A stretch of DNA of 51,090 nucleotides from Candidatus Levybacteria bacterium RIFCSPHIGHO2_01_FULL_36_15. Its GTDB lineage: Bacteria; Patescibacteriota; Microgenomatia; Levybacterales; GWA1-39-11. A model generated the notes under the pieces. It was given only the letters and a program-made list of their open reading frames with translations. It did not search any database and was not told the origin of the DNA. Location of the stretch: assembly GCA_001782015.1 (NCBI GenBank), contig MFNJ01000056.1, forward strand, positions 1 to 51,090. Reading direction: 5' to 3'. Positions 7,491 to 11,803 of this stretch are shown one piece after another (position 1 is the first letter of the stretch; each line of letters opens with the position of its first letter). The position numbers and the translations under genes were made by a program.

Positions 7491-8201
7491 CTAATTATTT
7501 ACTTCTCTTTCCCATCTGGACAGATAATTTCCAGTTCTAAACTTATAAATATTTTTAATGAATTCCGTGTAGGTATGAATACTTCTGGTCGAACTGCCTC
7601 CAGCTCTGTCCAAATTTTTCATGCTGATTTCTTCAATAGACCAACCAAGCTTACTCATCTTTATTAGAAATTCCCCATCAATGAACGAGTCTCCCGATTG
7701 CAAATTCATTTTTTCCAAATATTCTCTTTTGAAGATTCTTGGACTGCCATTAGTATCAATCCAGAGCGTCCCAAAAACTATTTTCATGATAAGAGAAAAA
7801 CTCCATGAGGTAAAATCCCTTAACCATGACTCTCTTTTTCCTCTTTTCACTTTAACCAAATTAAACTTTCCTGAAATTGCCTCTTCCCAAAGAACAGGAA
7901 AAATTTCCATGTCAACCTGACCATCAGATGGCATATAACAAACATACTTTCCCTTTGAAAGCTGTAAGCCTTTTATAACAGCATTTCCATAACCCTTTAG
8001 AGAAACAGCGGGCACGACATATTTGCGGCTTTTGGAAAGACTTTTTATAATTTGGGGTGTTTTGTCCGAAGAGCCATTCTCAACCAATATGATTTCATGT
8101 CTGATTTTAAGATTATTAATTTTTTTCTCTATATCATCTAAAACCTGTTCAATAATATCTTCTTCGTTATGAACGGGAAGGATAAGGGAAAGTTCTATCA
8201 T
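7491..8201 (-). CDS. GT2 family glycosyltransferase (polyprenyl-phosphate sugar synthase/DPM1-like, soluble)
   Basis: LSLILPVHNEEDIIEQVL... NGSSDKT; no C-terminal TM segments. Confidence 0.82.
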   Translation of the reverse strand: MIELSLILPVHNEEDIIEQVLDDIEKKINNLKIRHEIILVENGSSDKTPQIIKSLSKSRKYVVPAVSLKGYGNAVIKGLQLSKGKYVCYMPSDGQVDMEIFPVLWEEAISGKFNLVKVKRGKRESWLRDFTSWSFSLIMKIVFGTLWIDTNGSPRIFKREYLEKMNLQSGDSFIDGEFLIKMSKLGWSIEEISMKNLDRAGGSSTRSIHTYTEFIKNIYKFRTGNYLSRWEREVNN

Positions 8202-9112
8202 AAAGCTTTTGAAATTAAGTTTGCAATTCCTTCCGGATCAAGTCCAAATTTCCTTCTTAAATAATCCTGTTTTCCCATTTCAGAAATAAATATATCAGGG
8301 ATACCAATTCTTATTAATTTTGAATTATATCCACTTTCACTTATAACTTCAGCAACTGCCGATCCCAATCCTCCCGTAATCAGATGCTCTTCTGCCGTAA
8401 ATATTTTACTGTGTTCTTTGGCTATTTTATTAATAAGATTCTTATCTAATGGTTTTAGCGTATGCAAATCCACAACGGTGATTTCTATTCCCTTGCCTTT
8501 CAATATGTCAGCTGCATCCAGCACATTTTTTACTATGTTACCGGTTGCAAATATCGCTGCCTTATTGCCTTTTCTAAACAACATACCCTCTCCCAGTCTA
8601 AGCAATGACTTGTCTTTGTGTATCATAGGCTCCCCTTTTTTCCCAAGTCTTAAATAGAATGGACCCTTTTTATTGGCAGCCTCCAGTGTTGCCCACGCTG
8701 TCTCAATCGGATCTGCAGGGCAAATTACAGTCATATTGGGAATACCTCTCATCAAAGATATATCTTCAATTGCGTGGTGCGTGGGACCCGCATCACTATA
8801 AGAAAGTCCGGCACCGCTTCCTATAATCTTGACATTTGCCCTGTGAACTGCCACGTCGGTTCTTATCTGCTCATATGGACGCATTGTAGAAAAAGTAGCA
8901 ATAGAGTAAATAAAAGGAATTTTACCTGACAGCGCAAGACCCGTTGCAACTCCTGTCATATTTGCTTCAGCAACTCCTACATTTATAAACTGCTTCGGAA
9001 AAGACATCGCAAAGTCTTCAAAGACGGTAAAACCTAAATCCCCTGTTAAAAGCATTATTCTTGGATCTTTTTTCGCAAGCTCTGTTAATGTTTTTATAAA
9101 TGCATATCTCAT
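8198..9112 (-). CDS. Transketolase, C-terminal subunit (split enzyme)
   Basis: GDLGFTVFEDF..FINVGVAEANMTGVATGLALSGKIPFIYSIATFSTMRPYEQIRTDVA; overlaps the next gene by ATGA. Confidence 0.9.
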   Translation of the reverse strand: MRYAFIKTLTELAKKDPRIMLLTGDLGFTVFEDFAMSFPKQFINVGVAEANMTGVATGLALSGKIPFIYSIATFSTMRPYEQIRTDVAVHRANVKIIGSGAGLSYSDAGPTHHAIEDISLMRGIPNMTVICPADPIETAWATLEAANKKGPFYLRLGKKGEPMIHKDKSLLRLGEGMLFRKGNKAAIFATGNIVKNVLDAADILKGKGIEITVVDLHTLKPLDKNLINKIAKEHSKIFTAEEHLITGGLGSAVAEVISESGYNSKLIRIGIPDIFISEMGKQDYLRRKFGLDPEGIANLISKAL

Positions 9113-9113
9113 T

Positions 9114-9932
9114 TCAATTTTCTTTCATTGCCAGATTATATAAATTCTCGTCTAAATTATTGTAATGCCATTCAATTTTTCCTTCCATAAAAGAAACACC
9201 TTTACCAGCAGTCGTTTTTGCAACCAAAACGGTGGGTTTTTCTTTAATAAGCGGCATTTTCTCCAGTATTTCAAACAGTTTTTCATGATCATGACCGTTT
9301 GTATTTATAGAGGCCCAGCCAAAGTCCTTAAATTTAACTGAAATATCTTGAAGATCCAAAACATTTTTTGTTTTTCCAAATGCTTGAAGACCGTTTTCAT
9401 CAATAATTAATGTCAGATTATCCAATTTGTGATGAGCGGCAAACTGTGCTGCTTCCCAAATACTTCCCTCATTCAGTTCTGCGTCCGACATTAAAATATA
9501 CACCTTATATTTTTTTTTGTCTAACTTTGCCGCCAAAGCCATCCCCACCCCAACAGAAAGCCCATGTCCCAAAGATCCGGTTGAAAATTCAATTCCAGAA
9601 ATACCATATTCGGGATGTGTGCCAAATTTACTGCCGTTTTTACAAAAATTACTCAGGCTTTCTTTTGAAAAAAAACCTCTGCTTGACAAACACGCATACA
9701 AAGCAAGAGCCGCATGGCCTTTACTTAAAATGAATCTATCTCTATTAACATCGGTCGGATTTTTGGCATCAATATGTAAAATTGAACCATATAATACGGA
9801 CAAGATATCTGCAACAGATAAACATGAACTGATATGCCCTGTATGATTAAAATAGGAATAAAAAAGAATATCCCTTCTGATTTTTTTACTCAGATTTATT
9901 AAATTCTCTATCGATTTTTTTTTAAAATTCAT
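9114..9932 (-). CDS. Transketolase, N-terminal (TPP-binding) subunit
   Basis: GHISSCLSVADILSVLYG; DRFILSKGHAALALYACL; GDAELNEGSIWEAAQFA TPP motif. Confidence 0.9.
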   Translation of the reverse strand: MNFKKKSIENLINLSKKIRRDILFYSYFNHTGHISSCLSVADILSVLYGSILHIDAKNPTDVNRDRFILSKGHAALALYACLSSRGFFSKESLSNFCKNGSKFGTHPEYGISGIEFSTGSLGHGLSVGVGMALAAKLDKKKYKVYILMSDAELNEGSIWEAAQFAAHHKLDNLTLIIDENGLQAFGKTKNVLDLQDISVKFKDFGWASINTNGHDHEKLFEILEKMPLIKEKPTVLVAKTTAGKGVSFMEGKIEWHYNNLDENLYNLAMKEN

Positions 9933-9942
9933 AAAATAAATT

Positions 9943-10899
9943 TTATAAATACAAGTTGCTATTCTTTTTAATCCAGTCGATTGTTTTTGATAAACCGGAT
10001 TTAAGATTGTTTTTTGGCTTAAAACCTAGAAGTTTTTCTGAAAGCTTTGTGTCAGCAACCCAGTAATTGCTATCCCAGGGCCTTTTGGGATAAGATTCTC
10101 TCACAATGTCAACATTGTTACCTACAATCGGCAAAATCATTTTTGCAACCTCAAAATTGGTGTATTGCATCCCGGATCCCACATTAACAATTCTACCAAA
10201 AAGTTTATCTTTATGCTTAATAGCCAAAATGTAGGCGTCAACCACATCATCAATATGTATGAAATCGTGAGAGATATCTTCTGCTGTAATATTTATAGAT
10301 TGATTTGATAATGCTCTTTTTATAATCGTTGGGATAAAACGGGTTGGTTGCTCATAAGGACCATATGCTGAAAAAAGACGGAAAGTTGCTACCGGCTTAT
10401 TATACTGTTTTGCAAAAACCTGGGAAAGGTAGGTAGAAGAAGCTTTTGTGGCGGCATAAAAAGTGAGCGGTTCCAGTAAATCCGTTTCGCTCATCGGTTT
10501 TTCTTTTAAACCATATTCTGATGAAGAACCAGTATTGACAAAAATATCATAATCCACATTTTTGCTTGCTACAAGTAAGTTAAGAGTTCCCTTAATCGCC
10601 ACATCAACCATTTGATCAATATCAATTTGTGTAGGATATGCTCCATGAGCGGCAAGATGATAGATAGCGTTTGGTTTTATGCTATTTATAAGTTTTGTTA
10701 GACTTTCCCTATCCGATAAGCTAACCTCATGCAGTTTAATTTTTTTCATAATTTCCTTAATTCTCCATGGATTAGTTGTATGTTTCCAAATCAAATGCAC
10801 ATCATAATCCAAATCCAAAAATTTTCTTGTTAAATTAGCGCCAACAAATCCGCCGCCGCCTGTAATTAGAACTGACCTATGTGATAAAATATTATTCAT
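9943..10899 (-). CDS. NAD-dependent epimerase/dehydratase (extended SDR, nucleotide-sugar modifying)
   Basis: ITGGGGFVGANLTRKFL Rossmann motif; Y-x3-K active site (YAATK). Confidence 0.88.
   Translation of the reverse strand: MNNILSHRSVLITGGGGFVGANLTRKFLDLDYDVHLIWKHTTNPWRIKEIMKKIKLHEVSLSDRESLTKLINSIKPNAIYHLAAHGAYPTQIDIDQMVDVAIKGTLNLLVASKNVDYDIFVNTGSSSEYGLKEKPMSETDLLEPLTFYAATKASSTYLSQVFAKQYNKPVATFRLFSAYGPYEQPTRFIPTIIKRALSNQSINITAEDISHDFIHIDDVVDAYILAIKHKDKLFGRIVNVGSGMQYTNFEVAKMILPIVGNNVDIVRESYPKRPWDSNYWVADTKLSEKLLGFKPKNNLKSGLSKTIDWIKKNSNLYL
10885..10890 (+). promoter_or_regulatory. Extended -10-like box (TGA-TAAAAT) 7 nt before ATG at 10898
   Basis: plus strand TGATAAAAT-ATTATTC-ATG. Confidence 0.45.
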
Positions 10900-11803
10900 G
10901 ATAGATATTATATGCGCTTTATGCGGGAAAAATCAACAAACCGAGGTATTATTTCCCTCAACTTTTAATGAAAAAAACATATCGTCAGATATATATTCCG
11001 CCAGAAGGCTTCCTGACAAAATTCATTATCAGATATTAAAATGTAAAAACTGCGGACTGGTTTTTTCTTCTCCTATTTTTAAGCCGGAGCAAATAGAAAA
11101 ATTATACAGAGAAAGTTTATGTAATTATCACGATCAGATTCCCTATTTAACCAATACTTATTTGGGTCTATTCGAAACTATATCCAAAGATTTACCCAAT
11201 AATCCAAAAGTTTTAGAGATTGGCTGCGGAAACGGATTTTTCCTGGAAGCACTAAAAAAAAGAGGTATAAATCAAGTCTATGGCGTTGAACCAAGTAAAA
11301 AAATTGTTTCTGAAGCGTTAAAAGACCTTCAAAAAAAAATTAAGGTAGATATTTTTAAAAAAAACCAATTTCTCAAAAATAGCTTTGATCTGGTCTGTTG
11401 TTTTCACACATTAGACCATATAGTTAATGTCAATGAGTTTATATCTGAAATTTTCTCCGTTTTAAAAAAAGGCGGTATTGCTTTAATTGTAGTACATGAC
11501 ACTGAAGGACTATCGGTAAAAATATTCGGAGAGAAGTCTCCAATATTTGACATAGAACATATATATTTGTTCAACAAAAAAAACTTGGCCGATCTATTCA
11601 GGAAACACAATTTCCAAACACTTAAGCCACTTGATTTAAAAAATACCTACCCCTTGATCTACTGGTTAAAAATGGCTCACCTGCCCTCAAAAATAAAAAA
11701 TTTGCTAATCAATTTCTTCAACCTTTTTAAAATAAGTAAAATTGAACTGAAGATAAAAGCCGGAAATATTGCCATAGCCGCTGTCAAAAAAAAATATAAA
11801 TGA
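10898..11803 (+). CDS. Class I SAM-dependent methyltransferase with N-terminal Zn-ribbon-like Cys motifs
   Basis: CALCGK...LKCKNCGLVF Cys pairs; VLEIGCGNGFFLEALKKRG SAM motif I. Confidence 0.85.
   Translation: MIDIICALCGKNQQTEVLFPSTFNEKNISSDIYSARRLPDKIHYQILKCKNCGLVFSSPIFKPEQIEKLYRESLCNYHDQIPYLTNTYLGLFETISKDLPNNPKVLEIGCGNGFFLEALKKRGINQVYGVEPSKKIVSEALKDLQKKIKVDIFKKNQFLKNSFDLVCCFHTLDHIVNVNEFISEIFSVLKKGGIALIVVHDTEGLSVKIFGEKSPIFDIEHIYLFNKKNLADLFRKHNFQTLKPLDLKNTYPLIYWLKMAHLPSKIKNLLINFFNLFKISKIELKIKAGNIAIAAVKKKYK
10907..10936 (-). promoter_or_regulatory. Sigma70-like promoter (TTGATT-18-TATAAT) 7 nt before ATG of 9943-10899, inside the divergent methyltransferase CDS
   Basis: -10 at 10907-10912, -35 at 10931-10936 (minus). 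Confidence 0.55.

Follow-up and report, generated by a model that had tools for sequence, protein, structure and literature searches.

How can two divergently oriented genes that leave no DNA between them both be transcribed and translated, and does their arrangement join their expression or set one against the other? The question is raised by a window of 51,090 nucleotides (the whole stretch of DNA that was analyzed, contig MFNJ01000056.1) from the small (1.37-Mb) draft genome of the uncultured Candidatus Levybacteria bacterium RIFCSPHIGHO2_01_FULL_36_15, in which an epimerase/dehydratase gene (SDR) on the minus strand and a methyltransferase gene (MT) on the plus strand begin on the same bases.

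Two genes with shared start codons

The two genes and the site at which they meet are as follows.

9943..10899, minus strand: SDR, 318 aa, NAD-dependent epimerase/dehydratase (ORF and family match, Pfam Epimerase)
10898..11803, plus strand: MT, 301 aa, SAM-dependent methyltransferase (ORF and family match)
10897..10900, no strand: CATG, overlapping start codons (read from the sequence; same CATG in loci L023 and L024)

The minus-strand ATG occupies 10899-10897 (CAT at 10897-10899) and the plus-strand ATG 10898-10900, with A10898 and T10899 common to both. The 2 genes therefore form a divergent overlapping pair, with a coding overlap of 2 bp at their 5' ends on opposite strands. Both are real genes, with family matches and orthologs that have the same start, and MT further carries an N-terminal CxxC and a weak similarity to sugar 3-C-methyltransferases (TcaB9, D-mycarose 3-C-methyltransferase). 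Each ATG is the earliest possible start downstream of an in-frame stop, and no alternative ATG, GTG, or TTG was found between either start and the conserved N-terminal motif of its protein (CxxC from residue 6 in MT and ITGG from residue 12 in SDR), so that both starts are effectively fixed.

Promoter boxes and their geometry

Candidate promoter elements were identified on both strands within the first codons of the opposite gene.

10907..10912, minus strand: TATAAT, SDR -10 box, 7 nt (10906-10900) before the ATG (read from the sequence; invariant in L023 and L024)
10931..10936, minus strand: TTGATT, -35-like hexamer, separated from TATAAT by 18 bp (also TTGATT in L023, TTGCTT in L024)
10885..10890, plus strand: TAAAAT, MT -10 box, 7 nt (10891-10897) before the ATG (read from the sequence; TATAAT in L023 and L024)
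10882..10884, plus strand: TGA, extended -10 (TGn), equal to SDR codon 6 NCA (read from the sequence)

A preliminary description of this DNA had reported start codons that share bases with zero intergenic DNA, a minus-strand TATAAT with TTGATT 18 nt off, and a plus-strand TGA-TAAAAT, each -10 box 7 nt from its ATG. That description is correct to the base for the start codons and the boxes alike, but its term for the promoters, back-to-back, was wrong: the -10 boxes point at each other, and the arrangement is face-to-face. The plus-strand -10 box lies on the left and the minus-strand -10 box on the right, 16 bp apart and both within coding sequence, and the predicted start sites coincide between them, near 10897-10900. 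Each promoter thus sits in a stretch that would be transcribed from the other. Given this geometry, the polymerase footprints overlap, and 2 polymerases are likely to be hardly able to bind together. No Shine-Dalgarno sequence (GGAG/GAGG/AGGA) was found ahead of the SDR or MT ATG in the window, and no good plus-strand -35 was found for the MT promoter.

Signs of leaderless initiation in the genome and class

We searched for the position of -10-like words relative to start codons in a 647-kb sample of the genome (573 genes, longest-ORF caller). TATAAT words showed a sharp peak starting 12-15 nt before the ATG. In divergent pairs, 33% of the first genes carry a box that matches TATAAT in at least 5 of 6 positions and lies 6-9 nt upstream of the start, compared with 8% when the position is shifted; for exact TATAAT, the figures are 12.8% and 1.0% (binomial p about 1e-18 for the enrichment). 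Operon-internal overlapping genes had a -10 box in 8% against 5%, and the genome-wide Shine-Dalgarno excess was small (9% against 4%). All 10 further Microgenomatia genomes in the sample showed this enrichment of boxes too, a few of them on the basis of just 11-18 genes. Given the strong genome-wide enrichment and its counterpart across the class, leaderless initiation is probably common locally.

A TA-like signal about 10-12 bp before the start is the mark of a leaderless gene in the survey of Zheng et al. (2011, PMC3160421). With their 7-nt spacers, both boxes at the SDR/MT locus are centered about 10 bp before their start codons; like the leaderless genes of that survey, SDR and MT each have a TATAAT-like box spanning -13 to -8, and both lack a Shine-Dalgarno sequence in the window, and here too such genes form a genome-wide class. 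That survey predates the Microgenomatia genomes and omits divergent pairs, whereas here 2 leaderless genes share start bases. Box position across the genome and class, together with conservation of the boxes, gives good support to the prediction, already made in the preliminary description, that both mRNAs are leaderless, with the start sites themselves predicted.

The leaderless signature (box at 6-9 nt, weak Shine-Dalgarno) appears widespread, in the window and in loci L002-L021, L088-L107, L115, L116, and L123-L162. We found no direct statement on leaderless initiation in Microgenomatia or Patescibacteria in the open full-text literature, a weak negative. If it is a common mode in Microgenomatia, it would affect the annotation of start codons there and could matter across Patescibacteria.

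Conservation of the overlap

The homolog set comprised 35 distinct MT homologs, with orthologs mainly from the class-level relatives Gottesmanbacteria, Daviesbacteria, Curtissbacteria, Levybacteria, and Woesebacteria, which places the window's genome in the Microgenomatia of the Patescibacteria. A divergent SDR gene adjoins MT in 13 of the homologs; in 10 cases 11-288 nt lie between the two genes, and in the other 3 they overlap by exactly 2 bp at CATG. The overlapping trio consists of the window and genomes G052 and G029 (3 genera, 2 families, and 1 order), the latter 2 having MT 58% and SDR 51% and 47% identical to the window; both boxes stand at 7 nt in all 3 loci. A check of the CATG overlap in related genomes, as the preliminary description had proposed, thus found the exact layout again in 2 other genera. 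In the 10 spaced lineages, the gap is mostly sufficient for 2 separate leaderless promoters. No more overlapping SDR/MT orthologs were found in 2 further orders and the phylum.

On the MT tree, the trio falls, with weak support, in a 5-member clade together with L052, which has a spaced pair, and L053, which has lost SDR. With the overlap as a single clade on this tree, 2 changes are needed, which fits 1 gain of the overlap plus the SDR loss in L053. A distant SDR/MT pair, L080 (G261), has an 11-nt gap, with CATAAT, the -10-like box of MT, extending over the start codon of SDR; it is possibly an independent approach to the CATG-type layout.

Dual coding in codons 4 and 5

With the CATG overlap and a 7-nt spacer, the opposing -10 box falls on nucleotides 10-15 of each gene, that is, in frame on codons 4-5. 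The minus-strand TATAAT is MT codons 4-5 (ATT ATA, Ile-Ile), and the plus-strand TAAAAT is SDR codons 4-5 (ATT TTA, Ile-Leu); the N-termini in the 3 overlap loci read MIDII, MVDII, and MIDII for MT and MNNIL, MKSII, and MSPII for SDR. ATTATA for Ile-Ile at MT residues 4-5 was identified in all 3 overlapping loci and in none of the 32 other orthologs; in the window's genome, ATT[A/T]TA stands at codons 4-5 in just 4 of the 573 genes. Across the 3 loci, 13 of 14 bases of the boxes and TG are invariant, compared with 51 of 105 in the flanks and spacers (Fisher p 0.0013), p-values here overstating independence because the 3 sequences are related. SDR codon 6 is TCA (Ser) in the window, GCA (Ala) in L023, and ACA (Thr) in L024; its constant bases, CA, are those that form TGn on the opposite strand, and the residue varies. 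Synonymous conservation was not raised over the whole genes (38 seen versus 33.6 expected and 29 versus 26.5), and because codon identity gene-wide is near expectation, the constraint appears local to the boxes.

Rarity of the layout

The layout goes beyond chance: among 1576 CATG sites in 647 kb, 3 have boxes of at least 5/6 match 6-9 nt away on both sides, and the SDR/MT site is the best of them. It is also the only 1 of 74 divergent pairs with overlapping starts between 2 long genes. Among the 374 class genomes, the strict pattern TAWAAT-N6-CATG-N6-ATTWTA turned up in 7 (1 with the reversed control), flanked by 2 long genes only at the SDR/MT locus; G052, which lies outside the 374-genome sample, has the pattern too. 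At the other 5 strict-pattern sites (4 without long ORFs on both sides and a fifth at a 51-aa ORF), no more than 1 side has a long ORF, so these are probably chance occurrences. Apparent overlaps in L019, L102, L137, L157, L158, and L161 were rejected as short ORFs, as probably misplaced starts, or for having no double-box layout.

Short divergent overlaps are reported to be strongly under-represented in prokaryotes, the reason given being that promoters and translation signals need room upstream (PMC2174442). The SDR/MT pair resembles those overlaps in that the start regions overlap divergently, and differs in that leaderless initiation would lift the translation-signal constraint and the promoter fits into the neighbor's codons 4-5(-6). 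Because the pattern is scarce among the 374 class genomes and divergent overlaps are under-represented, the locus is a rare, conserved form of leaderless genes with overlapping divergent promoters and no new category.

The surrounding sugar module

Downstream of SDR, the same minus-strand cluster continues with 3 genes.

9114..9932, minus strand: N-terminal half of transketolase, directly after SDR in its operon, conserved sugar module (family match and neighborhood)
8198..9112, minus strand: transketolase C-terminal half, conserved sugar module (family match and neighborhood)
7491..8201, minus strand: family 2 glycosyltransferase, sugar module also in L117, L121, and L122 (family match and neighborhood)

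SDR usually occurs with the split transketolase halves and the glycosyltransferase, facing MT, and this arrangement recurs whole or partly in other lineages. Judged by gene neighborhoods in 13 lineages, the divergent arrangement of SDR and MT is an old feature of this sugar module.

Among the transketolase halves next to SDR (L116:7893-9013 and L115:7885-9023, compared with window:8198-9932), the C-terminal half is short in G052 and G029 (164-170 aa) and has 304 aa in the window, and the full-length form of the window is closer to Gottesmanbacteria and Curtissbacteria loci. The existence of 2 types of this half suggests module shuffling or transfer. On the other side, MT, a gene for a membrane protein that matches nothing in Pfam, and a YfhO-like gene form a plus-strand operon whose genes overlap end to start (window:10898-15544), the sole plus-strand operon within an otherwise all-minus polysaccharide/glycosyltransferase region.

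Proposed explanation and alternatives

We consider it probable that the locus is a conserved head-to-head leaderless pair with face-to-face, fully interleaved sigma-70-type promoters that give joint, modest expression. Each RNA would begin no more than about 1-2 nt from its ATG and have no 5' leader; with neither a leader nor intergenic DNA, each -10 box must then sit inside the opposing gene. The plus promoter would be of the extended -10 kind (TGnTAWAAT), and the minus promoter would consist of a perfect TATAAT with the TTGATT/TTGCTT -35-like hexamer. Both would serve a single sugar-modification module, with SDR and the transketolase halves read one way and MT the other, and the most likely effect would be that both genes are expressed in coordination and at a low level, with 1 polymerase bound at a time. 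Several observations count against this explanation: the plus-strand box of MT in the window is a 5/6 match without a good -35, a promoter scan of the region scored the minus promoter alone, GGGAG before the MT start in G029 could serve as a Shine-Dalgarno sequence were the transcription start further upstream, and the 3 overlap cases, being related to each other, are not 3 independent trials. If the explanation is right, the locus illustrates how a leaderless genome packs a divergent pair below zero spacing by writing promoters into the neighbor's codons.

Compaction without any regulatory selection, in which the gap in a divergent pair of a streamlined leaderless genome drifts down to nothing and each box is kept simply as a promoter, has in our judgment a little under an even chance of being the whole account. 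Leaderless initiation is common here, the class contains further closely spaced divergent pairs (gaps of 2-11), and the distant ortholog L080 has a gap of 11. However, the exact -2 spacing has been kept across 3 lineages about 0.8-1.3 substitutions per site apart, and the gap is 11-288 elsewhere. A ratchet is plausible, since un-overlapping would require an insertion without damage. Compaction is hard to separate from the interleaved-promoter explanation and may simply be its cause.

A stronger reading of the dual-coded bases, which we put forward tentatively, is that of a selected architecture, in which the shared leaderless start and the dual-coded -10 boxes form a locked segment that couples or partitions expression of the sugar module and constrains the N-termini of both proteins (M-x-x-Ile-Ile/Leu).

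The preliminary description had gone on to propose that the polymerases compete for overlapping sites and so exclude each other, which would make expression of the minus-strand cluster and of the plus-strand island mutually exclusive. The overlap of footprints stands, as it follows from the geometry, and an elongating polymerase would cross the opposite promoter within its first 40-50 nt; binding of 1 polymerase at a time is likely. Built-in mutual exclusion between cluster and island is not supported, and a regulatory switch, by which interleaved promoters would let the cell express either the SDR/transketolase side or the MT side, is speculative and in our view improbable. In Escherichia coli, a bidirectional promoter that is strongly activated in 1 direction can be repressed in the other, but basal bidirectional promoters in the same study operated without competition (PMC12825309). 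Moreover, both sides belong to one ancient shared module and are expected to be needed together, and because the pair is spaced apart in 10 other lineages, exclusion is not a required property.

That one gene starts elsewhere and the TATAAT matches merely reflect AT-rich codons is very improbable and mostly refuted: at 35% GC, TATAAT-like words are frequent and the strict double box does arise at the chance sites described above, but neither gene offers another start codon before its conserved motif, starts, boxes, and spacings are identical in 3 assemblies at 58% protein identity, and SDR codon 6 keeps its bases rather than its residue.

Comparison with bidirectional and interfering promoters

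Face-to-face (convergent) interfering promoters, such as phage pairs, have -10 boxes that point toward each other and give overlapping transcripts. The SDR/MT promoters share with the phage pairs the facing -10 boxes and the passage of each polymerase over the opposite promoter, and differ in that the predicted transcripts come from divergent genes and would have about 0-3 nt in common.

In the bidirectional promoters described by Warman, Grainger, and co-workers, the -10 element is shared or overlapping, and the opposite start sites, for the most part spaced by 10, 18, or 23 bp, flank it or fall inside it (PMC12825309). As at the SDR/MT locus, opposite strands are transcribed from a single polymerase-sized stretch to give divergent mRNAs; simultaneous binding is sterically excluded there, and the overlapping footprints imply the same here. 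The SDR/MT locus has no shared -10 element: the box at 10885-10890 faces a second, separate one at 10907-10912 across the coincident predicted start sites, and each is embedded in coding sequence. At basal opposite promoters in E. coli, there is little or no competition; it sets in only under strong activation of one direction, and noise falls as a result (PMC12825309). Being small and clean, the SDR/MT locus lends itself to tests of how polymerases compete where start sites coincide. Two further loci in class relatives may have interleaved promoters, a tight divergent pair of a MiaA-like and a TPR-like gene with a gap of 11 (L126:5357) and 2 large ORFs overlapping by 19 (L137:10057).
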